Origin: a virus
Strand: one strand, 5' to 3'
DNA length: 58,991 nt
IMG/VR virus record: IMGVR_UViG_3300008263_000034
Coordinates: 1-58,991 of that record
Part shown: positions 3,266 to 58,218 of the stretch, piece after piece
Layout of the letters: the number at the start of each line of letters is the position of its first letter
How positions within the stretch are numbered: position 1 is the first letter of the stretch
Notes under the pieces: model-generated
What the model was told of the DNA's origin: nothing
The model's database searches: none
Seen by the model: the letters and a program-made list of their open reading frames with translations, nothing else
Translations under genes and position numbers: made by a program

Positions 3266-4390
3266 TTAGAACTCATTTTGGTAGGCTCCGGTGTCATCCA
3301 TGTGGGTGTGGCTACGCTCATCGGGAATCATGTAAATCCAAGCGGTGAGTGTCGATCCCTTGTCCATCTTGATGGTAAGGGCGGTGCGAACATACCAATC
3401 GGGATGTCCTTCCAGTATGTCAAGTTTACGTAGTTCCTCTGTCGTCACTCGATAGACTTCTACCTTGACATGATGCCCCTTGCCAGCACGATCAATCAGA
3501 TACGGGATACCGGATACAACCATCGGATACTTCGTGAAGGTCTCGCCTGTTCCTAAGAACTTAGCTTTGTTCATCAGTCTGTCGTGGTTGCCATGCCCAC
3601 TCTTGAGTGTGCCGTAGACAGCAACCACATGGCTGTCGCCTGTCGGTATCTCGTTGACATACTTCTCTTCCATTCCGGTGTAGTAGTCATCCCACTCCGA
3701 TTCGTAGTTATGGTATATGTCGCTTCCGTCGAACAGGTCAGCGTTGCCGTTACCCCACGGATCATTCCATGATTCAGTCAACTCGTCTACGCTTGACCAG
3801 TCGTGCTTTGTAGGAGGCGAATAGCTACGCCAAGGTGCAACAGTTGTCGGCGTTGTCTTCGGGGTGTAAGGCGAGAACCCACGCACTACCTTAGATGGTT
3901 GGGGTATTGCATTACTCTTGCTGAAGTGCACGCCCTTGTGCTCCACCCAAAGGTCGCGATTTACCATGATGGCCTGACCACTCTTGCGATTGAGTAGTGC
4001 GAAGCGACATGAGTAGGTGCGGAGGATGGAGAGGATGCGTTCCTCATCTAGTCCTGACAGGATCTTGCATAGCTCCTGAGTATCTACCGACTTGGCGGAG
4101 ACGAGGCGTTCGATCGTGCCGTTCATCATCAGCGAATAGGTTCCGTCAATGTGGAATGGATGGCACTGCTTCTTACCGATCTTGCCGCTAGTCGAGTAGC
4201 GGAAGTGGCACGTGTAGCCTCGGTCGATGTTGGTCATGATGTCCCATACCCGTTGCTCGGACATGGTGCGGACGATCTCTCCGGTGTCATGGTAGAAGAT
4301 GCCGAAGCCGTCTTGGTTCTGTTGTAAGGCGTTGTCAATGATCTCGTCAGAGACTACGCGGCATAGTGGGTTGTGTATAATTAAGCACAT
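3266..4390 (-). CDS. Class II glutamine amidotransferase fused to gamma-glutamylcyclotransferase (AIG2-like)
   Basis: A 374-aa two-domain enzyme. Residues 1-150 are an Ntn-type class II glutamine amidotransferase: Cys2 directly after Met1 is the expected nucleophile, followed by NQDGFGIFY (25-33), FRYSTSG (63-69), a conserved HPF (77-79) and MNG (89-91). Residues 255-355 are a gamma-glutamylcyclotransferase-like fold with VYGTLKSG (258-265) and LDILEGHP, where Glu327 matches the catalytic acid. A low-complexity linker joins them. The downstream gene is a glutamine-synthetase-like amidoligase. These three activities together are known from predicted peptide or amide-bond modification pathways: the amidotransferase would free ammonia, the ligase form an amide and the cyclotransferase remove gamma-glutamyl groups. 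The substrate is unknown. Confidence 0.85.
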   Translation of the reverse strand: MCLIIHNPLCRVVSDEIIDNALQQNQDGFGIFYHDTGEIVRTMSEQRVWDIMTNIDRGYTCHFRYSTSGKIGKKQCHPFHIDGTYSLMMNGTIERLVSAKSVDTQELCKILSGLDEERILSILRTYSCRFALLNRKSGQAIMVNRDLWVEHKGVHFSKSNAIPQPSKVVRGFSPYTPKTTPTTVAPWRSYSPPTKHDWSSVDELTESWNDPWGNGNADLFDGSDIYHNYESEWDDYYTGMEEKYVNEIPTGDSHVVAVYGTLKSGHGNHDRLMNKAKFLGTGETFTKYPMVVSGIPYLIDRAGKGHHVKVEVYRVTTEELRKLDILEGHPDWYVRTALTIKMDKGSTLTAWIYMIPDERSHTHMDDTGAYQNEF

Positions 4391-4423
4391 AGTATTATTT
4401 ATTTTGTATTGTTTTAGGTTAGA

Positions 4424-5707
4424 CTATCGGGTGTATTCGGTGATGTCGGGATGAACTATTCCATCCAACATCCAGATGCGGAAGTGGCGGGCTAGTCGCA
4501 ACGCCTTGGCGTAACGCTTGCGGTCGCCGTTGTATGCTTCCTTCAGTAGTATGCTGCGACTCTCGCGGACGAAGCGATTGAAAGTCCAGCACTCTTCCAT
4601 AGCACGGCAGGTGACGGCAATCAGACTAGCACGGCGGAGTAGATGCTTAGCATTGAGGACACGGCTTGGCAAGCGTAGCTCAATACCGAAAGACTTACAA
4701 CGGACAGGACTATACTTGATTCCCCTATCCTCAATCTTCTTGTCCTCACGGCAGTAGGTATTGTTGAGTCGCTTACGGAAGAGTGCATACCATAGCGGGG
4801 CATACACTCTGAAAGCGGCGAGTGTTTCGCGGGGTGTTTTTCCTTGCCAACTGATGTTGATGTGGCCACCACAAGAACTGTCGCAAGGCTCAGCAAGGAC
4901 ATCATTTGCACCACTCACGTGTCGCTTGAACATTGCCATGACGTTGGGGTCAAGCAAGTCGTAACAGTTTGTCACACCTTCGACTCCACACGAGCCGTCA
5001 CGCTCCCATCCTGCGATGAGATCATACTCCCCGATTCCTGCACCTTCAGAGCAGTAACCGAAGATGGTGTTCTTCTCAATCTCGAACCCGATGAGGAACG
5101 GGGATTGTCCACGATACTTCACCTCGTCCGGTGAGCTATGATACCCACATATAACCCCTCTGCCTATCTCTGGAGGACTGCAATGTTCGCAGTCGCCTTC
5201 GTCCTCGTGCACCCATTGGTTAACCTCATCACAGTGGTGGCATTCATCGACAGGCCAGTATTCTCCATCATCTTCACAATACACATAGTCGTCATCGCCT
5301 TCGACAAAGGTTGTGCCGTGTCCGTCTGTGCGGAGCGACTCGTCCTCGTTATGGTAGTGACCCCAGCCATGCACGTAGACGGTGTCGCAAGCGAGATGGT
5401 ATTCCTCGTCCTCGCAGTAAACACACACCGAGTCGTAGTAATATCCATCACTTGATTCTACCCAGTGGACATTGCCGTCCTCTTCTGCCATCTCCAACTG
5501 GTCGGGAGTGTAGTAATCACAAGTGTTGCGGTAGGCACTCGTTCCTACGCGAGTGCACTCTGCCCGCTCCGCTGTCGAGCCGTCCACCGTAGTGACGGGA
5601 TCAACATAGGTTAGGGTCAGGCGTGGTTGACTCGCTTCCTCAAGGATGAGGGCGAACACATTGTCATCTGTATTTGTATTTGTATTTGTATTTGTATTTG
5701 TATCCAT
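4424..5707 (-). CDS. Putative amidoligase (glutamine-synthetase fold) with N-terminal metal-binding region
   Basis: A 427-aa protein. The C-terminal half matches the phage-type amidoligase family: GFEIE (207-211), ERDGSCGVE (235-243), CGGHINIS (279-286) and SFGIELRLPSRV (339-350) are the metal/ATP-binding and substrate strands of the GS-like fold. Residues 95-176 hold paired Cys (95/98, 156/159, 173/176) with many His and Asp, probably zinc knuckles for binding a protein or nucleic-acid target. The first residues are an Asn-Thr repeat encoded by five TATTTG hexamers immediately after the start codon. The start lies 8 bases downstream of a 65-base hairpin leader. It probably joins an amine or amino acid to a carboxylate of a peptide or small molecule, working with the adjacent amidotransferase/cyclotransferase. 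The reaction is inferred from family. Confidence 0.8.
   Translation of the reverse strand: MDTNTNTNTNTNTDDNVFALILEEASQPRLTLTYVDPVTTVDGSTAERAECTRVGTSAYRNTCDYYTPDQLEMAEEDGNVHWVESSDGYYYDSVCVYCEDEEYHLACDTVYVHGWGHYHNEDESLRTDGHGTTFVEGDDDYVYCEDDGEYWPVDECHHCDEVNQWVHEDEGDCEHCSPPEIGRGVICGYHSSPDEVKYRGQSPFLIGFEIEKNTIFGYCSEGAGIGEYDLIAGWERDGSCGVEGVTNCYDLLDPNVMAMFKRHVSGANDVLAEPCDSSCGGHINISWQGKTPRETLAAFRVYAPLWYALFRKRLNNTYCREDKKIEDRGIKYSPVRCKSFGIELRLPSRVLNAKHLLRRASLIAVTCRAMEECWTFNRFVRESRSILLKEAYNGDRKRYAKALRLARHFRIWMLDGIVHPDITEYTR
5671..5703 (+). repeat. Hexanucleotide tandem repeat (TATTTG)5 at an amidoligase start
   Basis: Five perfect TATTTG units plus a partial unit code for the Asn-Thr repeat at residues 3-12 of the leftward amidoligase. 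Six-base units keep the reading frame, so slippage would change only the length of the tail. The composition resembles the A-rich leaders of nearby genes. Confidence 0.85.
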
Positions 5708-9086: not shown

Positions 9087-11333
9087 GTGACGCAAAATCC
9101 ACCCACGATTCCCTCCGGCCTGAACGAGTTCGATTTACTCAATCTCGATCCTCAGACCCTTGCTCCGCCAGAATCTCGCCTCCGTGACGTTAATGCGGCA
9201 CGATCAATTTATGACACTCTGCGTAAGGCTGACGAGAAATCGGCGAGCAACCGAGCACGCTTGGACGCAATGTTCGACGGAGCGTCTCCATACGATCAGA
9301 AGGTTTTGTTCTCCACCGGACAAGGCAACCGCACCAACTTGAACTTCGGTGAGGCGCAACGACTGCTTGACGTTTCGATGTCCGCCTACGTTGACCTCTA
9401 CACTAGCTTGCAGAAGCTCGTGCGCGTATCCGTTACCGTAGGTGAGCCTGCGGAACGACAAGACGCGGAGGACATCATTGCCGAAGAGTTGACAGAGATG
9501 ATGCGGGAGTGGCCCGAGTTTCATTCCAACTACCTGCGCCTCTGCACCGAGTTCACGAAGCACGGCGTTGGCGTATCCTACTTTGAAGACCCGCACAACT
9601 GGAAGTTTCGGGTCTGTGGTTTTGGGGACTTTCTTATTCCTCGTCAGACTCCGGCATCCGAAGAGTCTATCGAAGTAGGTTGTGCTCGCCGCCAATATCT
9701 TTTACACGAGCTCTACGGCTTCATCAAAAACGAAGAAGCCGCCGCGAAGATCGGCTGGGACGTCGATGAAGTGAAGCGCGTAATCTCGAAGAACGCACGC
9801 ACTAGCGGTCGCAACGGTAGCAACACCTACGCTGACTGGGAAGTTACCCAGCGCGAGATGAAGAACAACGACCTCTATACCGGTCTTGAGAACACCACCG
9901 TGTCTGTTGTGCACATGTGGGTTCGTGAGTTTGACGGCAGCGTATCGTTGCTGATGTTCGCTGAGGAATCGCCGAAAGAGTTTCTGTTCCGTAAGAACTC
10001 GATGTTCAAGAAACCTGAACATGCCTACGTGATGTTCGCTTACGGTGTTGGAACCAACGGCACCTACCACTCGGTACGCGGACTCGGCAACAGAATATTC
10101 AACCACATCCAGACAAGCAACCGCATCCGCTGTCAGATGATTGACTCCGCGATGATGGGCGGTGCAGTGATGATCCAACCAGAGACGCAACGTGCACTCG
10201 AAGACCTGTCGTTTACGATGTATGGTCCCTACTCAATCCTGTCGCCCAACGTCAAGATCATTGAGAAAGCCGCACCGAATCTAACCAACACGATGCAGCC
10301 AGCTCTCACTGACTTGCAGAATCAGTTGGCTATGAACGTTGACCTTGTTTCGACATACGGCAATCAAAGTAGCCCCTATCGTAACAATCTACAAACCGAA
10401 CACGACCTTGCTGTATCGAGCCGTCTTACTGGTTCGACCATTAACCTTTTCTATTCGAGCTGGTCACGCTTACTCCGCGAAATCGTTCGCCGTGCTACTA
10501 CCAATTCTAAACGGGACGAATACGTTACGTCATTCTACAAACGTTGTGCTGAGCGTGGCGTTGATGCCAAAGTCATTGCTTCAATCAATCATGAGAAGAC
10601 TGTCGCTGTCCGTGCAATCGGTGCTGGCTCTGCCGCTAACCGCTTACTCGCACTCCGTGAGCTCAACAGCATTGCTGGTAGCTACGATGAAGTAGGCCGT
10701 CGCAACCTAATCCGCGATATTACTTCGGAGCGAGTAGGTCGTGATCTAGTAGATCGCTACGCGCCAGCAAATCCAGAACCGCGTATGACTGTTGATGCGA
10801 AGATCGCTCTGTTAGAGAATCAGGCTATGCAGTCTGGTCTACCTGTTGCCGTCCTTGACAGCGAGCTACACGGCATGCACCTACGCATGCACGCCCCGCT
10901 CTTGCAACAGTTGGTCAGCGGCATCCAAACTGGTGAAATTGATCCAGTGCAGGCTCTGCCTATGGTGCAGACGATCTATCAACATTGCGCCGAACACACT
11001 AACTACCTTGCTGCCGACCCGTCCGCTAAAGCGGAGGTAGCGCAGATGAAACAGCTGCTACAGGTCGGCGAAGAAATCATCACCAACTTTACCCGTAAGA
11101 TTCAGGCTGACCAACGCAAAGCGATGGAAGCTGGTCAAGTAGAAGGACAAGAAGGCCAACAAGCAGGTCCAACACCTACCGAACTGAAGATGCAGGAACA
11201 TCAAATGAAGATGCAGATCGCACAGCAGAAGGCGCAGATCGAAATGCAGATCAAGCAAGCCAAAGCCGATCAAGACCTTGCGCTGAAAGATGCCGAACGC
11301 GCATTGAAACTTTCTGGTAACACAGCTCAATAA
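9087..11333 (+). CDS. Portal protein
   Basis: A 748-aa protein, the right size for a podovirus-type portal. It lies immediately upstream of scaffold and capsid genes, as expected for the dodecameric head-tail connector and packaging channel. The N-terminal third contains helices and a beta wing. The middle holds a GLGNRIFNHIQTSNRIRCQMIDSA helix typical of portal stems, followed by a TGSTINLFYSSW segment. The last 90 residues are a Gln/Lys-rich coiled coil (EHQMKMQIAQQKAQIEMQIK), common at portal C termini. The start codon is GTG, with no Shine-Dalgarno. A TTGACG lies 31 bases upstream. Confidence 0.85.
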   Translation: MTQNPPTIPSGLNEFDLLNLDPQTLAPPESRLRDVNAARSIYDTLRKADEKSASNRARLDAMFDGASPYDQKVLFSTGQGNRTNLNFGEAQRLLDVSMSAYVDLYTSLQKLVRVSVTVGEPAERQDAEDIIAEELTEMMREWPEFHSNYLRLCTEFTKHGVGVSYFEDPHNWKFRVCGFGDFLIPRQTPASEESIEVGCARRQYLLHELYGFIKNEEAAAKIGWDVDEVKRVISKNARTSGRNGSNTYADWEVTQREMKNNDLYTGLENTTVSVVHMWVREFDGSVSLLMFAEESPKEFLFRKNSMFKKPEHAYVMFAYGVGTNGTYHSVRGLGNRIFNHIQTSNRIRCQMIDSAMMGGAVMIQPETQRALEDLSFTMYGPYSILSPNVKIIEKAAPNLTNTMQPALTDLQNQLAMNVDLVSTYGNQSSPYRNNLQTEHDLAVSSRLTGSTINLFYSSWSRLLREIVRRATTNSKRDEYVTSFYKRCAERGVDAKVIASINHEKTVAVRAIGAGSAANRLLALRELNSIAGSYDEVGRRNLIRDITSERVGRDLVDRYAPANPEPRMTVDAKIALLENQAMQSGLPVAVLDSELHGMHLRMHAPLLQQLVSGIQTGEIDPVQALPMVQTIYQHCAEHTNYLAADPSAKAEVAQMKQLLQVGEEIITNFTRKIQADQRKAMEAGQVEGQEGQQAGPTPTELKMQEHQMKMQIAQQKAQIEMQIKQAKADQDLALKDAERALKLSGNTAQ

Positions 11334-15507: not shown

Positions 15508-16062
15508 ATGAGTGTCATCGGAATCTGTATCGGTCATAGCAGAAGCGGCGATAAGGGCGCTGTTAACACAGACGGTGTCAGCGAACACACTTTTAACCGT
15601 GAGGTTGGTTACCTTACCGCCGAGCTCTTGAGAGAGAAAGGGCACACAGTACACGTTATCGACGAGTATGACGGCAGCTCCTACTCCGGTGCTGTCCATT
15701 GGGTGTCCGACCACTTGACAAAACTTGGCGCTACCGTAGCCGTGGAGTTACATTTCAACTCTGCTGGTCCGCATGCGGAAGGTCACGAGTGGATACATTG
15801 GCATCGAAGTGATAAGGGGCAGATGCTGGCGAGTTGCTTTAATCAGATATTTAAAGAGGCCTTTCCTGAAGCTAAAATACGCGGCATAAAGCCCGCTTAC
15901 AAGAACGATCGCGGCAGTTTGTTTCTCCGTGTCACACGCTGTCCGGCTATAATCCTCGAACCCTTCTTTGGTTCTAGCGAAAAAGAGACTAAGCTATATA
16001 CTCAAAACAAACCCGCCCTCGCGTCAGCTTACGCTAGGGCCTTAACTAATTACTTGACATGA
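15508..16062 (+). CDS. N-acetylmuramoyl-L-alanine amidase (Amidase_3), endolysin
   Basis: A 184-aa single-domain enzyme that cuts the bond between MurNAc and L-Ala in peptidoglycan at the end of infection. The zinc ligands of the Amidase_3 family are visible: His10 in CIGHS, Glu32 in FNREVGYL and His82 in VELHFN. The catalytic Glu151 lies in ILEPFFGS. There is no signal peptide and no wall-binding domain, so it needs a holin, for which the two small membrane proteins upstream are candidates. The stop overlaps the next gene (ATGA). Confidence 0.92.
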   Translation: MSVIGICIGHSRSGDKGAVNTDGVSEHTFNREVGYLTAELLREKGHTVHVIDEYDGSSYSGAVHWVSDHLTKLGATVAVELHFNSAGPHAEGHEWIHWHRSDKGQMLASCFNQIFKEAFPEAKIRGIKPAYKNDRGSLFLRVTRCPAIILEPFFGSSEKETKLYTQNKPALASAYARALTNYLT

Positions 16063-26965: not shown

Positions 26966-28024
26966 TTATTTGGAGTAGAGGTCGCATATGTGCCCTTCAG
27001 CGGCAACTGGAATGTCGGGAATCCATGTCGGTGGGGTGTGCATGATTTCAAGGATCTTTGCAAGAGCTTCTTCGGCTTGCGCTTCCGGAACTTCACAAAC
27101 TATTTCGTCGTGGACGTGGAGGATGACGGGAAATCCCGCCGCATCCACTCGCAGCATCATGTCTGAGAAGATGTCTCGCGCCAATCCCTGTGACATGTTT
27201 TCGGTAAGAATACCACCCCACAACTGGAAGTCGCGGAGTTGGCCGTTGCGGACGATCTTGCCGATGTAGCGGAATCGGGTCACCGAACCAGCCTCTTTCA
27301 TCCGCTTGATCTTTCCGTAGCGCAAGGCACGATTAGATGGCAGTTCCAGTTGGAATGGCTCACCGACAGCACAGGCAGTTGCCATGTTCTGGTCTAGCGA
27401 GCGCCAGAGTTTTGGCACTGTAGGCATACGCTCGCGGTATAGCTTAACTGCTTTCTCTGCTTCTTCGAGCGCCATGCCACTGAACGTAGAGAACTTGGCG
27501 GCGCCCATCCCGTACGAACAACCCAACGCGATCGATTTCACTTTGTGCCGTAGTTGCTTATCGTACTCCTTGAGCGGTCCGTTAGCCGGATCATGTAGAC
27601 CCAAGAGTACACCGAACGCATGGTAGATGTCGTCGGACTCACGGATCAGATCGAGTGCTTTACGGTCCTCGGCGAGCCAGCACAAGGTACGAACTTCAAT
27701 CTGCGACAAGTCGGCAACAATCAGCTTGTATCCGTCCTTCGGCCTAATCATGTGGCGGAAGTTAACGCCGAACATCCCCTCTCTTGGGAGGTTCTGGAGA
27801 TTGAGATTACCACCACTACCGCTGAAACGTGCCGTTGGGTTAGCACCACAGTACATTAAGCCGCCGTAGTATCTACCGTCAGGCATTGTCCCGCCATCAA
27901 ATGCCTCCAGCTTACGGAGGAAGGTATTGATGCGTCGGTAGTTTTGCACGGCACGCGCCCAAGGGCACGCGTCTTGGAATGCGGCAAACCATTTGTCTGC
28001 TTCCTCATTACCAGCGGCTGTCAA
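26966..28024 (-). pseudogene. DNA polymerase I (family A), polymerase domain, out of frame with its exonuclease part
   Basis: About 350 residues of polymerase palm and fingers. Motif A is VADLSQIEVR (Asp codon near 27712), motif B is RHKVKSIALGCSYGMG and motif C is HVHDEIV (near 27105). All catalytic acids are intact. The open frame extends to 28171, but those residues are a shadow of the exonuclease gene, and no ATG starts the polymerase part; a TTG at 28024 is the best candidate. The frame is +1 relative to the exonuclease. The thumb region usual between exonuclease and palm also seems too short. It may be a split gene, a programmed shift or an assembly deletion. Confidence 0.75.
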
Positions 28025-28586
28025 TAGGAATACCTCTCTGCCCAACCTTTCGATTGAGCTCGCTGATGTCTCGCTCCGTTTGAGGCCATCTATCAGATAG
28101 CTCCTGCCACAAGCGTAAGCAGAGCTCGGAGTCCTTAATGGCATACTCGGTAACCTCTTTCTTGAAGTCATCGGTCATCAAGTTCCACTGCTTGCCTTTC
28201 ATGTTGTCGCGGGTAGTCTTGCTGATCTCCAAACCGAATACGGCTGCTGATGCGTTCTTCAAAGACCGTGGGAGGCCGAGGAACGCTGTCATGTCAGCTG
28301 TGCAATGCCACTCAGCAGGGCTGCATGGGCTAAACCACCCGACCTCAACACCGTAAAGATACAGGCTCTCGTCGAATGAAGCGTTGTGGCTTAGCAATAC
28401 ATGACCGTTCAGCATAGACCAGTCAAACTGCCTAGGACATCCGGCGTAAACAAAACCATCATCGCCTACTACTGTTACCATGTAGGCGTCGAATTGAGGG
28501 TGTGAAAAGTAACCCCTCGGTCCCAATGTTGTGATGGAACAGTCACTGTCGTAATACGACTCAAAGTCAATAGCGTAAGTTATCAT
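28008..28586 (-). CDS. DNA polymerase I 3'-5' exonuclease domain
   Basis: A 192-aa product with the three proofreading motifs of DnaQ/Pol I exonucleases: Exo I DFE at 7-9, Exo II SHNASFDE at 66-73 and Exo III YAIKD at 148-152. After LNRKVGQRGIPID, the normal link to the polymerase thumb, it stops abruptly, while the polymerase part continues in another frame. It could act as a separate proofreading subunit or be half of a broken gene. A 14-base-pair hairpin just upstream separates it from the gene before. Confidence 0.85.
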   Translation of the reverse strand: MITYAIDFESYYDSDCSITTLGPRGYFSHPQFDAYMVTVVGDDGFVYAGCPRQFDWSMLNGHVLLSHNASFDESLYLYGVEVGWFSPCSPAEWHCTADMTAFLGLPRSLKNASAAVFGLEISKTTRDNMKGKQWNLMTDDFKKEVTEYAIKDSELCLRLWQELSDRWPQTERDISELNRKVGQRGIPIDSRW

Positions 28587-28605
28587 ATGTTATGGGCATA
28601 AAGAA

Positions 28606-28644
28606 ACCGCGCACGATACACTGGTGTAGCGTATCGTGCGCGGT
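28606..28644 (-). terminator. Perfect 14-bp hairpin upstream of the polymerase gene
   Basis: ACCGCGCACGATAC pairs perfectly with GTATCGTGCGCGGT around an 11-base loop. Read leftward it is followed by TTTCTTT, as in a rho-independent terminator. It lies between two leftward genes of the replication operon and may reduce read-through into polymerase. Confidence 0.75.
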
Positions 28645-28654
28645 AAATGTGTTA

Positions 28655-28885
28655 TTACTCTAGCTCCAGATCCAGCTCAAGCTGCTGCGGGAGGCGTCGA
28701 ATACGATCCATCTCGTTATCAAGAGCATTTGCCACCAAATTCAAAGACATCTTCTGAACCGTGAGCTCAGTGATCTGATCGTTGAGTTTGGTGATGTTAT
28801 CGTCGATTTCGGTAACTACGCTGCGGATGGAGTCGAGCTCGCGCTTTAGGAGTACAAGCGGGTTATCAATTATAGCTGTGCTCAT
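28655..28885 (-). CDS. Small coiled-coil protein
   Basis: A 76-aa acidic protein that is almost one continuous coiled coil (LLKRELDSIRSVVTEIDDN, KLNDQITELTVQKMSLNLV). It starts in an ATGA overlap with the upstream gene. It may be an oligomerising partner of the adjacent recombination proteins. Function unknown. Confidence 0.6.
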   Translation of the reverse strand: MSTAIIDNPLVLLKRELDSIRSVVTEIDDNITKLNDQITELTVQKMSLNLVANALDNEMDRIRRLPQQLELDLELE

Positions 28886-29508
28886 TGGTCGCCCCCTTTT
28901 GTAAGGCGTGCGGCAAACTCAGCTACCTCAGTTGATACGCTATCTTTAGTAGCAGCCAGCGTTGGCACGTACCAGCTGTACTTCCCTTTGGACATCAGTT
29001 CAGTTCCGAAGTTCCAAAATCTGGAAGACACCGGAACATCAGGGTTGAACGTCGAGAAGGTAAACAGACGCTTGTATGTCATGCGGTAGGCATCCTTCTG
29101 AACGGTGATACGACCAATTTGATAATTGTTATCGCCGATTGGGTAAGGGAACATTGCGTCATCATCGCCGACTTGAGGAATAAGTAGGATGATTTCAGCA
29201 AACTCCGTTATGTCGTAGCTGCTTTCTACGGCGAGGCTTTTTGCGTCGGCTTCGTTAGACACGATCTTCGGCATGTAGTCCTCACCAAAAGGAACGTCTT
29301 CTTTCCACCGCTTGATTGCACCGATCACAACGACCGGAGTTTTTTGTTCGGCTTCGAGGAGGACGGAGTCCTTGTCAATCACAACCGAACCGATAGGTCC
29401 TTCGATTTCCGACATCTTTTGGATGACGTTAAGGCGAGGGATGTCGATGTCTTGCGCTGCAAAGGCAAGTCCGGTTGCTGTGTTTGTGCTTAGTGCTTCT
29501 GTGCTCAT
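28882..29508 (-). CDS. Probable ssDNA-associated or recombination accessory protein
   Basis: A 208-aa protein starting MSTEALSTNTATG. The ATG at 29508 avoids the overlap with the exonuclease gene created by the longer frame from 29667. It carries DIDIPRLNVIQKMSEIEGPIGS and KTPVVVIGAIKRWKEDVPFGEDYMPKI, found in uncharacterised phage proteins next to RecB-like exonucleases. Aromatic and basic strands could bind ssDNA, but no OB-fold signature is certain. The gene neighbourhood (exonuclease, SF2 helicase, polymerase) supports a recombination or replication role. Confidence 0.5.
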   Translation of the reverse strand: MSTEALSTNTATGLAFAAQDIDIPRLNVIQKMSEIEGPIGSVVIDKDSVLLEAEQKTPVVVIGAIKRWKEDVPFGEDYMPKIVSNEADAKSLAVESSYDITEFAEIILLIPQVGDDDAMFPYPIGDNNYQIGRITVQKDAYRMTYKRLFTFSTFNPDVPVSSRFWNFGTELMSKGKYSWYVPTLAATKDSVSTEVAEFAARLTKGGDQ

Positions 29509-29581
29509 ATTACTGTTTTCTGTTTCTGATTGGTTGTTGCGTTCGCTTACTAAAGGGGACATCCATAACTCCCTTTTCTCC

Positions 29582-30721
29582 TCATCGTGAGGAAAGTGTG
29601 TATCGTGTTGGTCCGACCTCGACGATGCCGAGATCAATAGCTTCGGTTTCGAAGCTGTCAACAACAAAAGATTTTTTTCCTCTAGGTGTTTTTTCGTGGA
29701 GGGCTTTTGAGAGCTGACCCATTGTCAGGTCAGCAGCCTCGATAACCTCATCGAGACCCAAGCCGTGCTTAACAGCGAGTTGGGCGAGGTAGTTTTTCTC
29801 GATCGTCTTCTTGAGAGAGCCCATTGACCGTAGCTTATGGTTCTCAAATTCATGTCCGGCTAACGCCAAGCCAGTAGTCTTGTGCTTAATGGACTGCGCC
29901 CAATTCTCGACGATCTTAGCCACAACGAACAGCCGCTCAAGAACCTCTGGGTCCTCTACATCAGACGGCCTAATGGGGCCTGTAGGTAAGAGTTCAGGAC
30001 TAACCCTCGTTGCGATCTCTACGCAGACTGCGCCTAACGCGGGGCAGCTTTCTTCGTATCGGCAGAAACGACAGTTTACCGAGGGGGTGACGTCGTCAAT
30101 TTCAATCGAGCCCGTCTCCCACTTGGGTCGTGTGATCTCTGCTTTCCTAATTATCTCAGAAATTTGGTTACGTAAGTCGCCCATTTGTTCGCGCTTAAAT
30201 AACCCGCAAAGGACACCGCCATTGAGTGGCACGATGAAGGCAAACTTAATCGTGTGTATGTGGGGGAACATCTGCAATACTGCCAACGCATATGCCTTAG
30301 ATTGCCAGTTCTTCTCAGGCTCGTCGATCTTGCTGATGCCTGTCTTGTAGTCGATCATTACGGCATCTCCTTCTGCGGTATGTACCAGCAGGTCGCATGT
30401 GCCAAAGGTCGGCGTGGCCGCATCGAGTTCAAGGTGCAGCCGAATTTCTCGTTCAATAATCTTAGGGGTGTCACCAAAGACACCGTTGAGTATTTCTTCC
30501 TCGTCCGCAAGGATGGCCTCATAGAGTTTGACTTCTTCCTCGTCGTGCAGAGCGGACGGGTCACGAACCTCCAGAGCTTCGTGGATGCGCGTTCCTTTTT
30601 CGGCTGCGCCTGACGTTCCCTCCTTGCCGTGGTATCCGGCACAGGTGGCGACATACTTGAGGGATGATGGTCCGAACTCAGCATGAGCGCGTTCGGAATG
30701 GTTTATGGTTTCTTGATTCAT
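29582..30721 (-). CDS. RecB/Cas4-like PD-(D/E)XK exonuclease with Cys cluster (DUF2800-like)
   Basis: A 379-aa nuclease. The RecB-type core is clear: GTRIHE (43-48), Asp110 in GTCDLLV, DYKTG (124-128) and the QSKAYA motif (140-145). Cys217, Cys220 and Cys226 with Cys27 at the N terminus match the four-Cys iron-sulphur pattern of Cas4/AddB-type nucleases. Phage proteins of this kind act as 5'-3' exonucleases in recombination and in degrading host DNA. The start overlaps the helicase stop by ATGA. Confidence 0.82.
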   Translation of the reverse strand: MNQETINHSERAHAEFGPSSLKYVATCAGYHGKEGTSGAAEKGTRIHEALEVRDPSALHDEEEVKLYEAILADEEEILNGVFGDTPKIIEREIRLHLELDAATPTFGTCDLLVHTAEGDAVMIDYKTGISKIDEPEKNWQSKAYALAVLQMFPHIHTIKFAFIVPLNGGVLCGLFKREQMGDLRNQISEIIRKAEITRPKWETGSIEIDDVTPSVNCRFCRYEESCPALGAVCVEIATRVSPELLPTGPIRPSDVEDPEVLERLFVVAKIVENWAQSIKHKTTGLALAGHEFENHKLRSMGSLKKTIEKNYLAQLAVKHGLGLDEVIEAADLTMGQLSKALHEKTPRGKKSFVVDSFETEAIDLGIVEVGPTRYTLSSR

Positions 30722-32016
30722 AATTCTTGTTTCGTGTGAAGTGTTTCCATAGCTTTACGCTTCGCCTCAAGTGCTGTCAATACTTTTTCTTCAATAGTTT
30801 TTGATGCGATCAGAACCCTTTGAATAGAAGGGCTTTTTGAGTTTGCTCGGTGGATGCGTCCGAGTGTTTGGATATATTCTTTCACGTTAAACGTAGGGGA
30901 GATTAGGCTCATGCGCGGGTGCCCGCCGTGTTCATCGTGGAGGGATACGCCAACCCCACCAGCGGCAATGTTGCATAGGATCACGCGTGTTTGGTTGGTT
31001 TGGAACCGTTGCACGTTATCTTCGCGAACCATAGCCGACTGACCTCCGACCACGCACGACGCATCAGGGAATGCTGCGGCTAGTGCTTTGACCGTATCTA
31101 CGAAGTTGACGAACACGGCCACGCTGTAACCTTCTTCGTTTGCGTCTTCGATCATGCTGATGATGTCGGGCACTTTTGCTGCTTCCGCAAGTTGGCGAGC
31201 GCGGAGAATCTCGACAAGGATATGGGGGCTCGCGCCACCGTCCTCCACGAACCGCTCTACGATCTCAGGTGTGACGCCGTGTTGCTTGTAAAATTTAGCG
31301 ATGTCGCTCAGACCAGAAAACGCAAGTGGCTCCGTAATAACATGATTATCTGTGAATGCGGACGGCAGATCAGATGGCGCGAGCTTAACACATTTCACGC
31401 CGTAGAGTTCTTTATTGAGTTCAGCCAGCTTTGCAAGTGGACCAGCTATCCAGTTCTTCCAGTGGTCTTGCTTACAACCGTATTGCATCATCCACGAGAA
31501 CCAACTCTTTAGTTTGCCAACAGGTTTGTTGAGTGAGTGTGCATCTAAAACAAAACCGATTGCACGCATCTCCGTCGGATCTTGGCACGCGGTAGCTGAC
31601 AGCAGTAGGTTGTACAGACCCGCTTGCTTGGCTGCGATCAGCATCTGGGCGTTCTGGCTGAAAGGTGATTTGCACTTGTGGCACTCGTCCCAAATTAACA
31701 AGGTCTCTTGGGGTAGCTGCCAACGGAAAAGTTTCTTACCTACTTTGGCTAAAAACGAATTACCTCTTTTGAGTTTCTCGTAGTTGGTTACAAAGATTGG
31801 TGTGATGCCCACCTCTTTAAGCTCGCGTTCCCATGACGGGATAACGATCTTCGGACACACGACGGCAACTGGAATGCCTAACTCTAACGCAACTCTGGAT
31901 GCGATAACTGTCTTGCCGACTCCCGTATGAGAGCCGTCAAGCGCGCCTCTATGCAGCTTGAGCGCAGCAATAAGGAAGTCAACGGATTCCCGTTGCTTGT
32001 CAAATAATGTTTTCAT
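30718..32016 (-). CDS. SF2 helicase (SNF2/DEAD-like)
   Basis: A 432-aa helicase: motif I GSHTGVGKT (28-36), motif II DECH (110-113), motif III SAT (140-142), and a second RecA domain with VAVFVNF, AAGGVGVSL and motif VI QTLGRIHRA. The signature is of SNF2-like phage helicases that remodel or unwind DNA at forks or recombination intermediates. It is coupled on both sides by 4-base overlaps, to the RNA ligase and to the exonuclease. Confidence 0.88.
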   Translation of the reverse strand: MKTLFDKQRESVDFLIAALKLHRGALDGSHTGVGKTVIASRVALELGIPVAVVCPKIVIPSWERELKEVGITPIFVTNYEKLKRGNSFLAKVGKKLFRWQLPQETLLIWDECHKCKSPFSQNAQMLIAAKQAGLYNLLLSATACQDPTEMRAIGFVLDAHSLNKPVGKLKSWFSWMMQYGCKQDHWKNWIAGPLAKLAELNKELYGVKCVKLAPSDLPSAFTDNHVITEPLAFSGLSDIAKFYKQHGVTPEIVERFVEDGGASPHILVEILRARQLAEAAKVPDIISMIEDANEEGYSVAVFVNFVDTVKALAAAFPDASCVVGGQSAMVREDNVQRFQTNQTRVILCNIAAGGVGVSLHDEHGGHPRMSLISPTFNVKEYIQTLGRIHRANSKSPSIQRVLIASKTIEEKVLTALEAKRKAMETLHTKQEL

Positions 32017-32687
32017 TGCTTGCCTTTCGGTTGCTCGTCGTTATCAATGGTCTTCTTAAAGCCCACATTACCCGCAACATGATACACGACTACCCCTTCA
32101 GGGTTCATGTAGTTTGGGGCGGCTACACTTCCGTATCGTTTCAAATCACGAAGAGCCGCATCGACAACGGGGATGTCGTCGTAGGTATCATCAAAGAGGC
32201 ACCGATCAAGGATTGGCACCACCTTGCAGCAAGCTGGGGCATTCTCGGTGAACTTGGGTTCCGCTTTCGGGTTTTGGTTCTCAATGACGTAGGTGGGTTT
32301 ATCGGGTTTATCGTGTTCCACCCATCGTAAAGCGTTGAAGAGCGAGAAGAAACGCTCACCATTCTTAAAGCCGTATCCTCGTTGGATGCCAGAACCCCAC
32401 CACTCGCCAAAGTGATGACCCGCTCCTAATTTGACAAGCTCATCGGAATTGGCTCTAACCCATGCAGCGAATCCGAAGTTGTCGTCATCAGGCGTGATCC
32501 AGCGAGTTCTCGACCCAGCGTAGATGAGGAAATCAGCAGTGATGGCGGTGACTTTGGAAATGTCGCTACCGATAACTGGCTTGGGTTCGATGTAAACGCT
32601 TGCGTTGGTGCCATCAATTTTTTCTGTGATGAGGCACTCGCGTGAGAGGCGTGCCATCTTCGGGAATGGTTTGAATTCTGGTGTCAT
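32013..32687 (-). CDS. RNA ligase (nucleotidyltransferase superfamily)
   Basis: A 224-aa compact ligase. Motif I is EKIDGTN with Lys23 as the AMP-accepting lysine, motif IIIa/III is GEWWG (94-98), motif IV is EGVVVYH (197-203) and motif V is KKTIDND (211-217). It lacks an OB domain, like small Rnl2-related phage ligases that repair tRNA cleaved by host defence nucleases. No polynucleotide kinase is present in the window, so end-healing, if needed, must come from elsewhere. The stop overlaps the helicase start. Confidence 0.82.
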   Translation of the reverse strand: MTPEFKPFPKMARLSRECLITEKIDGTNASVYIEPKPVIGSDISKVTAITADFLIYAGSRTRWITPDDDNFGFAAWVRANSDELVKLGAGHHFGEWWGSGIQRGYGFKNGERFFSLFNALRWVEHDKPDKPTYVIENQNPKAEPKFTENAPACCKVVPILDRCLFDDTYDDIPVVDAALRDLKRYGSVAAPNYMNPEGVVVYHVAGNVGFKKTIDNDEQPKGKQ

Positions 32688-40612: not shown

Positions 40613-43600
40613 ATGCTGGAAATTAAACAATTCGACGACTGGCTCGCAAACCAAGAAGAGGCTGCCGAACCAACAACAAACCTTAAGAACTACACGGATT
40701 ATGTTAGGTCTAGCTACTACAGCGCAGGACAACTAAACCAAGAGACTGAACAGGAGATCGCCGCCGGAGTTGCTGACCGTCTTAATAGTGATGGCTTGTT
40801 TACCGACGACATGTCCGAAGAGGACAAAAATAATTTATACTCTAGTGTTATTGGCGCGACGCGTAATGCAGACACCGACGCTCGCTTTGTGTTGGACTAC
40901 CTCCGCACGAATAGTGAAGGGCCAGCAAATGTCTTAGCAAACGAAGCTAAAGTCAGCAATCTTGCGAACTACCTTACCCTACAAGAGAAATCCCCATCTG
41001 AAGCGGAGGGCTTTAAGCCATATGTCGATGAGATCCTTGCCGACAAGTCACTGATAAAACGTGCGCGTATGTCCGCTGTCGATCGCGGGGAATATAGCAT
41101 CGCAGCACTCGACGAGGAAGACGGCACGCGCACCCTCTACGCTGGCCCAAATGCACGTCCTGAATCTATTGCGGGTGAGGTCAAGTCACTTATTGCGACT
41201 GGTGCTCTGTCGTCCGCCGACCTATATCGGGTCAACGATTTCGTCAAACCATTAAACGGTGGTCTGACCAATGGTGCTGAAGACTCCCGATATGAGACGT
41301 TCGCACGTACGATTAGTGATCTCGCAAAAAAAGATAAGGACTTAAATCAGTTAATCGAAAAAAATGCTTCCGATAAAATAGAGCAGAAGACAGCTGAACT
41401 CCGCACCACCGGAGAGAGTATATGGGGGGGAGTGAAGACGGTCATCAGTTACCCCTTTATCAAGGGAGGTGATCTTCTTCTTGACCTGTTTGACGGCGAA
41501 CAGAAACAGCCGAAGTATGCGCCCGACACAAAGCTGTCTGACGCGGTCGCTGGTAATAGCGCGATCAACCAACGCTTTAGCGCCGCTGAAATTGAAAAGT
41601 TCAGTGAGGCGCTTACGGACAGAGTTGCTGGAGCTCCTTATAGAGCCGACCGTCCTGAGACCGGAATCACTACCGACTCGATGGGTAATGTTATTCTCGC
41701 CCCAAGCCTTTTAGCTAATGTAGAGCAGTTTAATCAAGCTGTCAGTAGCTCTTCGCTAAATAAAGACCAGCAGAAACAAGCCTCTGTCCAACGTAAATTG
41801 TTATTGGAATCCGCTGCTCCTGACCTTATTCGGATGATCCTTGAAGAAGAACCTGAAGCGGTTAGCAGCTACGCAAAAGCAAAAGCCGATGGGCTCTCCC
41901 CTTCCGAGTTTGTCGAACAATATGTAGGTAATAATAAAAATTATGATGCGTTTGGTACTCGCTTAGAACAGTTTGGAAAAAGCGCATGGAAAACTTTGGC
42001 TGAGATCCCTTTAGGTATTGCCGCCCTTGCTGGTAATGAGTGGGCTGCTACGACGATGGGCGACATGATTAAAGACCAGACCAGACGTCAAGAGTTCTCC
42101 CGTCTCTACGGAGACGAGTATGGTTTGGGTTTCCAGATACTGAACACACTCCCACAGGTAGCTGCCGACATCGGCCTAACTATTGGAACAGCTGGCGCGT
42201 TTGCTGGAGCCAAAGCACTTGCGAAAACAGGCGCGGCGTCGGCGCGTGCTATGATCCGGAATGGTGCCAAGATGGCACTCTCTGAGATTGATGATGCGGC
42301 AGCGGCTTCGTTCCGTAAAGCGGCGTCCGCTGAGGGCTCACAGTTTCTCGGTAAGGCTATCACAGATGTTGGTAGGAGTTTTGGTAGCAAGTTCGGAGAG
42401 CTGGCTCCACTTGCCGCTGTCACGTTCACCCGATCAGCTGGCTCCTCATTCGGTTCCCTCTACAATCAGCTGCCGGACGACATGAGTCACGAGGAAAAAT
42501 ATAAGACCGCTCTTCCCGCTGCCCTTGCAATGGGCATCTCCACGTCTGTCATCACAGTGGGTCTGTCGGGATTGGGACTCGGTGCTGTTGAAGATATCGG
42601 CACAAACGTGGTTCGTAATAAAATTCTCGGTGGTGACACACTAACAACACGTGCTGCCCTTGAGGCTGCTGAGCGTGCTGTTCCAGTCAGTAAGATGAAT
42701 TACCGACAAGCCAAACAGGCATACCAGAACGCAGCTAACGAAGGCCGCATCCTTAGCGACAAGGCGTTTAACGCCGCTGCCCGCGCAGCCGTCACCAGCA
42801 CTTACAAAAACTGGTTGAAAACCACAATAAAGGGTGGACTTAGTGAGTCGTTTGAAGAGGCGCTAGACCAAGGCGTCGGCATGGCTATTGAGAACGCTGC
42901 TCTCGATCGGGATGCTTCGCTTGCTGAGAAGGTTGCACAAGTGTTCGATGCAGGACTTATTGGTGGTGCTTTGGGTGCAGGTATTGCTGGTAGCACCCAG
43001 TTCGGCAGAGTTCGTAAATCAGAACAGAGTCTGGTGTTTGAGGGCAGAGCATCCGCATTTGAGGATATCGCAAAGCGGCTCCGTAGTAACAATAGCAATT
43101 CTACCGCCGATGTATTGCAACGCCGTATCGACGAGGCGCGAGAGCAAGCACGACTCTCTGTCGAAAGAGATATCGCCGCGCAGAAAACTCAAGAGGAGGT
43201 CAAAGAACGCACTGTCGTTGCTGACCCCAACGAAAGACCCCTTAAAGGTAGACCTGTCTTTAACGAAGAGACAGGTCAGTGGGCACCCGCAGACGAGCCG
43301 TTCGACCCTCTGCTCGATGACATCCTAGGAGAGGAGATCGAATATAGTGGCTTTGAAGGCGTTCTGGAGCTAGACGCAGACGGCAGCTCTGTCGTCCTCC
43401 GACTCAATAAACCGTATACCACAGAGGGAGGCGGGTCAGTTGAGTTCATTAACTTGGGACCACGCTTCCAGAAAGCCTCAAAATTTACCGCCCCTCTCCT
43501 TACCATTGGGCAGGAGACTTTCGGCGTGCCCGCTGGCACCCCATACATATCAATGGGTGGTAAGAAGAAAACCAAATTTGCTTTTCCAGCAAAAGAGAAA

Positions 43601-46600
43601 GTGACCCCAGAGTCATTTGAAGTCTTTCGTGATGATGAAGGGAACGTGCGTAGCCTTATCGTTAAGGGTGGTCTCTCCCTTAAGGACGGGTCTACGACCA
43701 TGAATATCCCCCTTACTAACTCTTTACAGATTAAAGCTATAGCAGAGTGGTACGGTATTGACATTACGCCTAAACTGCCAGTGTCAGAAACCGCAGACGG
43801 TCAATTCGAGTTTGGGTTTGCTAACCGCAAGGATCTCGTCAAGTCGAAAGAAGAGTTCGGGTTCGTCGCCCCAGATGAACCAGAGATGACCGACGAAGAG
43901 CTAAAGGCAGAGACAGAGGACATCCTCGGTCGGTCATTCGCTCCTGTAATGGAGGGAGAGATGGAGCTCGTTACTGATAAACAGAACAGGACTAGAAGAA
44001 TACTTGAGGGGTTCGACACTCAGATCTCCAGTAAGCAGAAGAACCTCAAGAAGGTTACCGATACCCTCGCGCCACTCAAAGATCTTAGTGACAAGCAGTT
44101 GACCGGAGACCAGAAGCTCATCAAACAACAGAGCATTGATCTTGAGAAAAAAATCAAAAAAGAAATTACCGCACTTAGAAAAGCCAAGAAAGAGTTTAGT
44201 GAGGACGCGATCGAGCTCGGATCTTCGGCAACACAAGAACCACTAACTGCTACACCACAAGGCCCACGCGTGTATCGGAGTTGGGATGAGTCACAGAAAC
44301 AACTAGACCGCGATTTCGCTGAGTCCATCAATGGAATCAGGCAGAGTTATGTGGATACGGACGTGCCCGTTGATGTGGATCGTATTGAGAACATTATACG
44401 TATAGTACCACTCCGCAACAAGCTCGGCACATCTATTGCTCTCTCCGACGTCTCGATTGAAGAACTGGACGCCGTCGAATCAATGGCGGAGGACATTATT
44501 AGTTTTGCAGAGGACACCAATAATAAGGCTACGCCGAAGCAACGTCAACTAATCATTGATGACTACAGGGCTTTGGTTGCTCGGGTAAATATCATACAGC
44601 AGTACGCCGTTGAGCGTGAGTATGAAGAGGTTTTCGGTCTGGCGGTGTCGGAACTGAAAGCGTTACAGACGGAACCGGAACCCGAAGAAGAGGTCGAAAC
44701 AAAAGCAAGCGACAATGACACGCTACACTACCTACTCTCCAATACACCTGAAGCGTTTACCACGATTGATGTAAAACCATTTGCTGACAAAAAGGTTTTA
44801 GGTACCCTGAAAAAAATGGGTGTTGAGATCGGCAAGCAACGCCAAGACAGTGTAGAAACGGTAACGGTTACAGGTTACGATCAAGAGACCAGAGAAATAC
44901 TATACGAGAAGAGTGGCGTCACAGTGCGTGCTCCACTATCTACCGTCAACTTCGAGTCCCCTACTCTACGCACCGCCATTGACGCCGCGAGCACAGAAGT
45001 TTTTGATATTACGCAACAAGCCAAAAAAGAAATGGCAGCGATTAAACGTAGAACGGCACGGCCAGTACAAGACCGTGCGCGTGACTTCCTTATTAAGGTT
45101 AATGACTACGTCACTAAGAGCAAAGCATTAGACGAACGCCTTAAGGAAGTGGACAGAATGCCCGCAGCAAAGAGGTCCGCCGTCAAGCAACGCATCGAAG
45201 GGCAGCTGAAGGAGCTGAGAAAAAGTGCTACCAAATACGTCAACAGCGTTGGCTCTGTCCTACAGTCTGACTTTGATTTCTATAAAGACCTAGAGGAAGA
45301 ACAAAAACAGGAAATAGCTGCCCAGATCCGCCGCTCGCTTTACGGTGTTGGGGGATTTAAACAAGAAGTGGCGCCTAGAGCTAGAGTCAAAGCCTTTAAT
45401 CCAACGCCCGACATAAAAGTCACTAGGGTAGTATACGCCAAAGAGCAGTTCCGAAACGGCACGCAAGAGGAAGACATGCTTAATGAGCTAGTCGAAGGTG
45501 GTCACATCGTTAACCTGCCGGACACCGGAAAGGCCTTAGCCCAAGCTGGTCTTTTTATTACTGAGTCCGGTGTGAGTAAATTCCCAGCGTTCTCGCAATC
45601 TCAAGTTGAGTTAGTCGAGCAGGAAGGCCAAGAGGTAGCTGACACTAACGCTTACATCAAGGACAAGCACGAACTCCTTAGCGAAAAAGTCCTGTCTAAA
45701 TACCCACAACTCGGCGAGCTGGTTACCATTACAGGTAGATCCAGAACCAAAGGAACCATTGGTGATGATACCGCTATGCTCGACTCTATTGAGGTAGAGA
45801 TCAATCGAATGAATAGCGCTATTGAGAAAGATGCGCTACTCGGCAGAAAAGTACCTTCCGAGTTCATCAAGAAACGCGACGGGTTGGTGCAGCAATTAAA
45901 AGAAGCTAAGGTCAGAATAAAGGACGAAAGATATTACGAAATTGACGGAAAGAAATACGAAGTCGTTAATAGTAAAACGGACAGGAGTATTTACTTTCCG
46001 GTGGATAAAGACGGCCTGTTTGGTGTGTTCACAAACAACCCTAAGATCACAAGAGCGCAGATTGCGGCGGGTTATCGTGTGGTCATACCTGATAAGTTCG
46101 ATAGAGATCTGTTTAACCCATCGCAGTATACACGGGACGGGCGTATTATCGAAGGATACTATATGCCCCGCAATCCAGAACCATCTACCGTAGGTAGTTT
46201 CGGTCGCGTATCGAACCCGAGGATTGATGAGAACGGCGAGCAGATACTCGACGAGAGATCGAACTTTGATAGCACACGCATTGAGTTGTTTGTGAATAAC
46301 ATGGTGAGTACGTCTGAGATTCAAGGGAATATGGGGGCTTACTTCGCCACCTCATTAAGAGAACTCAATAAAATTACCCGCAACCTCCTCGCGTCGAAAA
46401 GAAATAGTGATTCAAGATTCCCTTGGTCAGAGACTTACATCGACAACACGGTATCAGACCTTACCCGAGGGTTTGCTGCCGAGTTAAATGAATACCGCTT
46501 GGCTCAAAACGTAGTACGGAGAGCCTTTCAGTCTTTGGAATTTCAAGATACGATTAAGATCGGGAAAGAGTTAGTAACTAGATATATTGACGAAGAGGGC

Positions 46601-49600
46601 AACACGATAGAGTTTTCTGATCTCCCACAGGAAATCAGAGATGAAAGTATTGTGGATAAACTCAAGAAAACGGATCTTGTTAAGTTCGTAACTGAGATGA
46701 TCCCAGATCGTGATGTTAATTCGATAGCTGCCGACATCAAAAAGATATACAAGAACATCAAGGGCGAAGATTCTAATTCGGTTATTATCCAATACGCCAA
46801 ATTGCTTTATGCTAACGCCACTGTTGCAGGTGGTAGGTTCTACTCACTACCAGATCCGAATACGTATTTAAATCGTCCAGCTAATCTGACAGTTGTGGGG
46901 ACCTCGGTCTTTAACACAGTAGCAAATAGGAATGCAAAAGCTGAACGAGCTAACCCCAACACCGAATATGTACCCTTAGATTACGTTACGCGAGATGGAG
47001 ATGGGTTCTTCTTAGAGGAGATAATCGGAGCAGCGGGCGCGGACACAATCCAAGCGCTGCAAGATGAGATGGATCGGCGGAGACAGGAGAGCGGAGCAGA
47101 TGCGGGAGTATATGATATGCTACTCACGGGTGAGTCGTATGCCAGCGCACTGGAATCGTCTGACCTTGTCTTTATGAACCGTTCAGCTTTGTTGGCGAGC
47201 GAACTATACCGCACTATCGCAGAGGACAAGACTGGCAAACTAGCCCAAGTCTTCAGGGATCTCGCGGTGCAGACCGGAGTAATCCCACAATATCAGGCAG
47301 ACAACTTGTCTGATGCTGTGCTCGTCCAATCACTATCCGGCAGACTTAACACTGATTACGTCCTCCACGCCAATAAAGGGTACGCTCGCACTGTGCTATC
47401 CACATTGTCCGGAACGGATTTAGGTAAGCAGGCCGCTGGTATTCTAATCGCCCTTAGATGGCTACCACCTACAATGTCGCTTCCGTTGCGAGCACCAGCT
47501 GAACGGAAATCTGCAACACCTGCGGCGACAGCAACCACGCCACCGGATGAAGCCATCGCGGCAGGTAAAGCCTTACGCCAAGCAGAAGCAACAGATAGTG
47601 ACACGATTGATTATGCCAGAAATTACCTAGAGGCATCTCAGGCAGCACTACCGTATCTGTTAAAGCTCGGCAGTGAGCGAAGGATAGCCCTCAACACAAT
47701 CGAAGAAGCTCGCGCAGACATTTACGATTCGTTCCGTTTGCTGCGGACGCTTATTGGTCAGACAGACCCCGAAGACATAGGACCTGTCCAGACGAAAACC
47801 AAAAGGCAGATCGCCGAAGGTATTGAGATCGGTCGCGTCGGAGTTACAACCGAAAGCGTTGCTGCGTTCCAAGACAAAAATGTTAGTGGTATCGAAGCAG
47901 AAATCCAGAAACTACAGGATACACGCAAGAGAACTGAAGATCTTATAAATGGAATAGGCTCTGTTCGGGCGAGGATTCTGGAGATCACTGATGGTCTCGT
48001 TTTACGAGACGAGGCGAGCAAAGCCATTGAGGTGATACCAGCTCTACTAAAACAGGCAAAGTCTAATAAGGAAAGGACCGCGCTTAAAGCAGAACTGGCG
48101 GAGCTACAAAAGACTTACGAAGATATCTTCTATAGAGGCGACGAGACTCTCGCTGACTTGGATGCTTCGATAGTCACTAAACAAAAACAACTTGAAAAGG
48201 CTAAGGCTGTAAGAGAACTAAGTGGACCTACTCTAGTCAACAACCTAATTGAGAACATCGAAGCGGCCTACGCCCAAATAAATAACAATCGCGAGTTCTT
48301 GTCTGAGCTCTCTGAATCCGCTAGAGCTCGTATCCAAAGCGAAAGCCAACGGATTGAGCGCCTCCGTAAACTACCAGAGTGGCAACAATACGTTGAGATC
48401 ATTGCTGGTTCGCCTACTATTTTACGCGGTAGAAAAGACATAGATGAGAAAGTGAGGCGTAAGATTGATGAGATTGAGAGTGACGCGACAAAACGTAAGA
48501 CATTTGACGATGCCGTAAAGGCACGGGCAAAAGCACTCGATCAAGCGCTGATTAAAAACGGCTTCAACCTACCGAAGGCTGGTCTCATTACCCCATACGT
48601 TGATCCGATGGACTTCGTCGTTAGCAAGCCCCGATTCGAACCTTCTGAAGGTCAGACTACAGACCCGAATGTTCGTGGAGTTGGTCGCCCAAGTGGCAAA
48701 GTAGTCGCAACATTTAGCGAGCAGAATCTCTCAGCCGCTGAGCGCCAGCAGTCCACAGCGAAATCATTCTCCGAAGTAGTTGCACCGATAGTACGCTCAG
48801 GTGAACGCTTTAGACCCGCTCTACCACCCCTCCCAACCAAAGAGGTCGGCGGCAGAATCAAAGTACTCAGCAAGCCGAAAGAATACGATCCGAACGACAA
48901 GTTCTTCTCGCTGTCTCAGATCGACCCATCCCTCCGCGACGAAGCAAGGGTAGAGAACCTGCGCGTAGCTGGACAACTCGGTCTCGTATCCGGTGACCCG
49001 AACTCTGTTCTCGGAGCCCTCCGTAGAATCACGCAGACTGGCACACCGAGGCAACAACTGATTGCCGAACTGCTGCTGACTGCGCCGGACTTCATTAGGG
49101 ACATCAACTTCGTTATGGTCGAAGTAGACTTGGGCTTTGCTGGTCTTTATGACAAGACGAGCAACTCAGTCTTAGTTAACCTAAACGAACACAACGGTCG
49201 TGGTTTAGTGGACGTGCTCCTGCACGAATACCTCCACGCACCGACAGCTAAGGTTCTACTTAACCCTAAGACTGAGTCCCAACGGAAGGCAGTGGCACGT
49301 ATCGAAGCGATTCGTAACTTCGCCATCGCTAATGCGGCTAAACTCGGACTGGACACAGATCCAGTTGTAAGGCTCGGCTTGTCCAACAACGCTGAGTTCT
49401 TGACCTACGCCCTTACTGCACCGGAATTCCAGAACATCCTTGCTGGTCTTGCACCGCTTGACCAACGCTCGATCCTGCGCCGTCTCGTTGACGCTATCCT
49501 TAACGTCTTTGGTCTTGATCCTAAGAAGCACGAGGTTGCCGCTGATGCGATCCAAGAACTACTCGACTTCACCAAGATGTCCCTCGCCCATGCAGGTACG

Positions 49601-58105: not shown

Positions 58106-58218
58106 ACTATTTATTTGTTTTCTTTTTTTTTTTATTATGTTGCCGACCATTTATGCTGTCGCAGTCGGCGTTGCGATCGTGTTGTAATTCAGTTTCCTGA
58201 AAGGGTCAATAAGGAATC

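Follow-up and report, generated by a model that had tools for sequence, protein, structure and literature searches.

Two adjacent genes of an uncultured phage probably form a module that makes and edits amide bonds; that probability applies to what the enzymes do and to the link between the genes, and does not extend to the target. They lie in the window, by which we mean the whole IMG/VR virus record IMGVR_UViG_3300008263_000034, of 58,991 bases, in which no exact end repeats were found. One gene encodes a GS-fold amidoligase, and the other a class II glutamine amidotransferase (GATase) domain fused to a GGACT-like cyclotransferase domain (Table 1). The active sites of all three domains are intact, and near-invariant across about 75 non-redundant relatives (76-77 sequences).

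The ORF positions given in the first-pass annotation of this DNA were correct. Both genes are on the same strand with a spacer of 33 nt, and the amidoligase is transcribed first. No Shine-Dalgarno (SD)-like site is present ahead of the fusion gene, the second in transcription. This is no evidence against the gene, because just 2 of the 37 major window genes have such a site; upstream regions are A-rich.

Table 1. Features of the amidoligase and fusion genes in the window (positions in the 58,991-base record).
Feature	Positions	Strand	Basis
GATase-GGACT fusion protein, 374 aa	3266..4390	-	ORF list, PF06094, motifs, AlphaFold model
Class II glutamine amidotransferase (Ntn) domain, about residues 1-160	3911..4390	-	Invariant motifs; GlmS fold match
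Predicted disordered linker, residues 168-251	3638..3889	-	pLDDT about 34; missing from most relatives
GGACT-like cyclotransferase domain, residues 253-371	3278..3634	-	PF06094; 1vkb/3jub by sequence and fold
GS-fold amidoligase, 427 aa	4424..5707	-	Motifs, profile-profile comparison, AlphaFold model
Cys/His-rich beta-hairpin/zinc-ribbon-like N-terminal module, residues 95-184	5156..5425	-	Sequence and model strands
Amidoligase catalytic domain, residues 203-427	4427..5101	-	Conserved E209, E211, D237, E243, H282, E343, R345

In Pfam and NCBIfam scans, the N-terminal half of the fusion gave only sub-threshold matches to GATase_6 (Pfam, 17.1 bits versus a cut-off of 27), PurF and GlmS, the purF and glmS models of NCBIfam scoring far under their cut-offs. 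The class II motif set is complete, with Cys2, R64 (HFRYSTSG), N90-G91 (MNGT) and D103 (VDTQE); GlmS has HTRWATHG, HNG and D123 at the corresponding places. In an alignment of 77 fused proteins, C2 is conserved in all 75 that reach this position, and R64, N90, G91 and D103 in 76 of 76. The AlphaFold model of the domain resembles the glutaminase domain of GlmS in a fold search (3ooj, 5.2e-6; 1xff, 9.2e-6), which bears out the earlier description of an intact class II amidotransferase with Cys2. In GlmS, the Arg and Asp equivalent to Arg64 and Asp103 bind the free alpha-carboxylate and the alpha-amino group of glutamine. As both residues are invariant here, the domain should take free glutamine, and not be a general thiol peptidase.

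The C-terminal domain was recognised directly, residues 256-363 matching GGACT PF06094 with an E-value of 7.4e-26 (91.5 bits versus a cut-off of 22.8). The cyclotransferase motifs are YGTL at 259-262 and Glu327 in LEGHPDWY. Y259 and G260 are conserved in 77 of 77 fused proteins, E327 in all 76 that reach the position. The best fold match of the domain model is the mouse/human gamma-glutamylamine cyclotransferase (1vkb, 6.7e-10, TM 0.72 by target), and 5-oxoproline-bound 3juc (2.0e-9) comes ahead of the glutathione-type enzymes; 1vkb and 3jub are also matched by sequence. PF06094, YGTL, the catalytic Glu and the best fold match are thus shared with GGACT/A2LD1 (1vkb, 3jub), from which the window domain differs in being fused behind a GATase domain. 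The first-pass annotation had called a gamma-glutamylcyclotransferase with Glu327. This residue was rightly placed, but the closest type is GGACT, so that the expected substrate is a gamma-glutamyl-amine and not glutathione.

In the AlphaFold model of the fusion, both domains are mostly above pLDDT 90, and residues 167-251 are below 50. The gap between the domains, measured by HMM edges, is 2-3 residues in most relatives, and a long linker is found in a minority that includes the window. Channelling of ammonia or gamma-glutamyl groups inside the fusion, as proposed earlier, is doubtful in the window, because some 85 residues predicted to be disordered part the two domains.

The 427-residue protein is, judged from its sequence and its model, a divergent relative of Amidoligase_2. 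Scans against Pfam, PHROGs and NCBIfam gave no usable match, and the PF12224 cut-off was reached neither by the window amidoligase nor by 24 relatives searched whole; the A3 profile, searched by sequence against the chains of the PDB, found no match either. Of the HMM searches proposed on first pass, the one for the cyclotransferase succeeded (with PF06094), GATase_6 stayed sub-threshold and the amidoligase was missed by the family models. The Amidoligase_2 motifs are present in order: GxExE at 207-211, DxS at 237-239, E243, CGGH at 279-282, R313 followed by YC at 318-319, and ExR at 343-345. G207, E209, E211, E243, E343 and R345 are invariant among the amidoligase relatives, D237 and H282 are kept in 75 of 76, and eight known Amidoligase_2 proteins of phages have the invariant residues in the same order. 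Compared with these eight by hhalign, a profile of 61 relatives gave a probability of 95.8 (E 6.6e-9).

For structure prediction, alignments were built from IMG/VR loci alone, the GenBank phage rows being left out. The amidoligase model has a mean pLDDT of 84.5, its catalytic part being mostly above 90. With foldseek it matched glutamine synthetase (5dm3, 7.3e-6), gamma-glutamylmethylamide synthetase (9qur, 3.4e-4) and YbdK (5.8e-4) in the PDB, and viral proteins named amidoligase with values of up to 1.5e-12. Global TM to the PDB entries is low (0.2-0.3, the foldseek alignment to GS being poor globally), and the fold is therefore assigned from three things jointly: the local match, the motifs and the profile. 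The window protein shares with Amidoligase_2 (PF12224) the GxExE, DxS, E, GxH, R..YC, ExR order and the GS fold. Unlike that family, it has conserved Cys240 and Cys279, and the second His of HxH is replaced, by Asn in the window and by Thr in 56 of 76 relatives. With this His lost, substrate or metal use may differ. Loss of the metal and ATP residues, which the first-pass annotation had held would speak against its proposal, was not seen; the residues are kept. These proteins constitute a phage amidoligase branch, with about 75 non-redundant uncultured relatives, that goes unrecognised by the standard models of Pfam, PHROGs and NCBIfam.

The GS-fold amidoligase had been described as carrying a Cys/His-rich N terminus. 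Motifs, profile and fold match agree with the first part, and the N terminus is real as well: residues 95-184 contain most of the Cys and His that precede the catalytic domain. The model shows short paired strands at 109-166, forming a row of beta-hairpins, and a CxxC-x13-CxxC stands at residues 156-176. A hairpin motif, C-E-D-x-x-[DE]-Y-x-x-x-[DE]-[DE], recurs in the amidoligases of the window and several relatives; a similar regular expression was found 12 times in long amidoligase N termini, versus a mean of 3.2 and a maximum of 8 after shuffling. On the fusion side, a C-terminal CxxC...CxxC ribbon is present in 63 of 83 systems, and the window clade is without it. We infer that module and ribbon bind zinc. 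Partners or substrate are probably held by the Cys/His module, which sits on the amidoligase in the window clade and takes the form of a zinc ribbon at the C-terminal end of the fusion in most relatives.

In a tree of the joined domains, module and ribbon labels cluster strongly, with a few changes; where exactly the window belongs is unsure, given the length of its branch. Mutual exclusion of the N-terminal module and the ribbon was considered and rejected. The pattern is one of clades, and two systems (L005 and L135) have both a long amidoligase N terminus and a ribbon.

Viral contigs were searched with the amidoligase profile and with the fusion profile as seeds, which gave 147 loci with both genes (some sharing contigs), or about 112 distinct systems. 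The amidoligase was upstream of the GATase and on the same strand in all 147, with a gap of -106 to 3,886 nt; among ORFs of at least 80 aa, relatives had no constant third gene in between. A GATase was found in 71 of the 79 amidoligase-seeded loci, the remaining 8 stopping less than 2 kb past the match; an amidoligase was found in 69 of the 79 fusion-seeded loci, and most of the remainder end early upstream. L118, where 3.65 kb of upstream sequence is present, and L163, with a weak GATase and no cyclotransferase, may be real exceptions. At the window locus, dN/dS versus the nearest relative is about 0.18-0.19, indicating purifying selection. Together with the same gene order in every two-gene locus, this argues that the pair is not a chance association. 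The functional linkage proposed on first pass is thus supported, and the unlinking in related phages that would have told against it was not seen. The amidoligases of other phages, which are accompanied by a GATase alone (Arthrobacter), a cyclotransferase alone (Bacillus, Geobacillus) or both (UFV-P2, CW02), speak for coupling too.

Conservation of the pair extends beyond that of the virion genes. A window protein of 748 aa (9087-11333) is portal-like by position, not by family. In BLAST searches, relatives of it and of the terminase were found in just 4 of 21 other records tested (G001, G012, G013 and G014), and the amidoligase branch in 20 of these 21. Being present where the portal-like protein and the terminase are unmatched, the pair is kept across phages with no relationship between their structural genes at BLAST sensitivity. 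Among 50,697 annotated phage records, GATase-cyclotransferase fusions were found in two (MW202828.1 and OQ984151.1); three bacterial assemblies also have one.

The two genes might instead be ordinary neighbours with separate roles, such as salvage of gamma-glutamyl peptides for one and an unrelated ligation for the other. Gaps of 1-4 kb part them in many relatives. In a Campylobacteraceae MAG contig (L170, 10001-10822), a GATase-GGCT fusion has a uracil-DNA glycosylase gene and a ribosomal protein L20-like gene as neighbours, a location that looks chromosomal, and a model search of the flanks examined found no amidoligase. Order and strand are nevertheless fixed in all two-gene loci, including those of phages with unrelated portal and terminase, and we regard separate roles as improbable.

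Amidoligase, class II GATase and cyclotransferase also occur together, near replication genes, in the cassette of the phiEco32/LUZ24/RIO-1/CW02 type, whose gene list is given in PMC3890496 and which appears also in PMC10580990. For this larger set, as found in UFV-P2 and CW02, a published account proposes peptidoglycan as the target and describes a peptidoglycan modification cassette that acts against superinfection (PMC5498523); as relayed there, the proposal rests partly on Iyer 2009. In UFV-P2 and CW02, the COOH.NH2 ligase, amidoligase, GATase, RimK-like ATP-grasp and cyclotransferase are separate genes. In the window, by contrast, GATase and cyclotransferase are a single polypeptide, and the amidoligase, with its Cys/His-rich N terminus, comes from a distinct and divergent branch. 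Neither the ATP-grasp (RimK) nor the COOH.NH2 ligase family was found in the window, in 23 IMG/VR relatives or in MW202828.1, the positive controls UFV-P2 and CW02 being detected. Phage C75C1 (OQ984151.1) and MW202828.1 likewise have a fusion with an amidoligase gene nearby; unlike the window, C75C1 has an amidoligase of the ordinary PF12224 type, and in MW202828.1 the fusion ends in a zinc-ribbon tail that is absent from the window fusion. The window pair is read as a reduced, partly fused variant of the phiEco32/LUZ24/RIO-1 cassette, and not as a new pathway. With a five-enzyme phage cassette cut to two genes, the chemistry becomes testable with two plasmids.

From residues and folds, the following order of reactions can be proposed. 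Cys2 of the Ntn domain would hydrolyse L-glutamine and free ammonia. The GS-fold amidoligase would activate a carboxylate with ATP and couple it either to this ammonia or to some other amine, amidation of a carboxylate being the most likely use of the GATase-derived ammonia. Glu327 of the GGACT-like domain would then split gamma-glutamyl-amine bonds to give 5-oxoproline and the free amine, and so edit, recycle or reverse gamma-glutamyl products. Tagging or untagging of a substrate by amide bonds, as put forward on first pass, is possible.

By analogy with the larger cassette, the likeliest target would be a carboxylate in a host cell-envelope peptide (peptidoglycan or a precursor), an assignment that we make tentatively. 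AsnB/LtsA amidates peptidoglycan by transferring glutamine-derived ammonia to a carboxylate, with a synthetase fold different from that of the amidoligase. MurT-GatD (PMC3267633), in which glutamine ammonia also amidates a carboxylate, is comparable in the way it works; it too has a different synthetase fold, and GatD is a class I amidotransferase. Neither is homologous as a system to the window pair. An objection concerns the cyclotransferase. GGACT requires its L-gamma-glutamyl substrate to have the alpha-amino group free; the D-Glu in intact peptidoglycan has no such free group, and this speaks against direct action of the domain on peptidoglycan. The window also encodes an N-acetylmuramoyl-L-alanine amidase (15508-16062), in keeping with chemistry at the cell wall, although lysis genes of this sort are ordinary.

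Alternatively, the amidoligase might add a gamma-glutamyl or other aminoacyl group to an amine on a phage or host molecule and the GGACT-like domain remove it, the GATase-like domain being a second gamma-glutamyl hydrolase and not an ammonia source. BtrJ and BtrG of butirosin synthesis are a precedent for such attachment and removal. Two of the domains are of types that act on L-gamma-glutamyl amides whose alpha ends are free, GGACT is the nearest cyclotransferase, and Bacillus and Geobacillus phages have an amidoligase and a cyclotransferase with no annotated GATase nearby. The glutamine-binding residue set is fully kept, however, and Arthrobacter phages (with a GATase) and Acinetobacter phages (with a GATase-like protein) pair it with an amidoligase without an adjacent cyclotransferase. 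We hold this cycle to be clearly less probable than the order of reactions proposed above. Rather unlikely, in our view, is a stand-alone two-protein machine, aimed by the zinc-ribbon/hairpin module and passed as a unit between unrelated phage backbones, that would both write and erase a small mark, amide or gamma-glutamyl, on one particular protein of the host or on a peptide of its envelope.

In many relatives the pair is located upstream of replication and recombination genes, as might be expected if the amidoligase decorated a modified base in the phage DNA with an amine or amino acid. No base-hypermodification gene was found among the window ORFs scanned (a subset), and this role seems very improbable. 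In the window itself, matches to DNA polymerase, exonuclease and helicase each fall on a short ORF of their own, and an RNA ligase comes next (26966-32687, minus strand).

The scarcity of SD-like sites and the A-rich upstream regions, together with relatives found in Cytophagales and Flavobacteriales MAG contigs, would fit a host that initiates without SD sites, Bacteroidota for instance; a motif search found no enrichment of the Bacteroidota promoter motif and gives this host no support. Near the end of the window, on the minus strand, a DUF2201 metallopeptidase-VWA protein (54800-56212; PF09967, 1.5e-18) and an AAA ATPase (57014-58150; phrog_1297) make up a MoxR-VWA-like pair, and in one locus (L002) similar genes come after the amidoligase module. 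On the plus strand, an ORF of 3,045 aa (40613-49750), with no PHROGs match and a sub-threshold Pfam match only, adjoins a virion structural protein of 1,206 aa (49779-53399).
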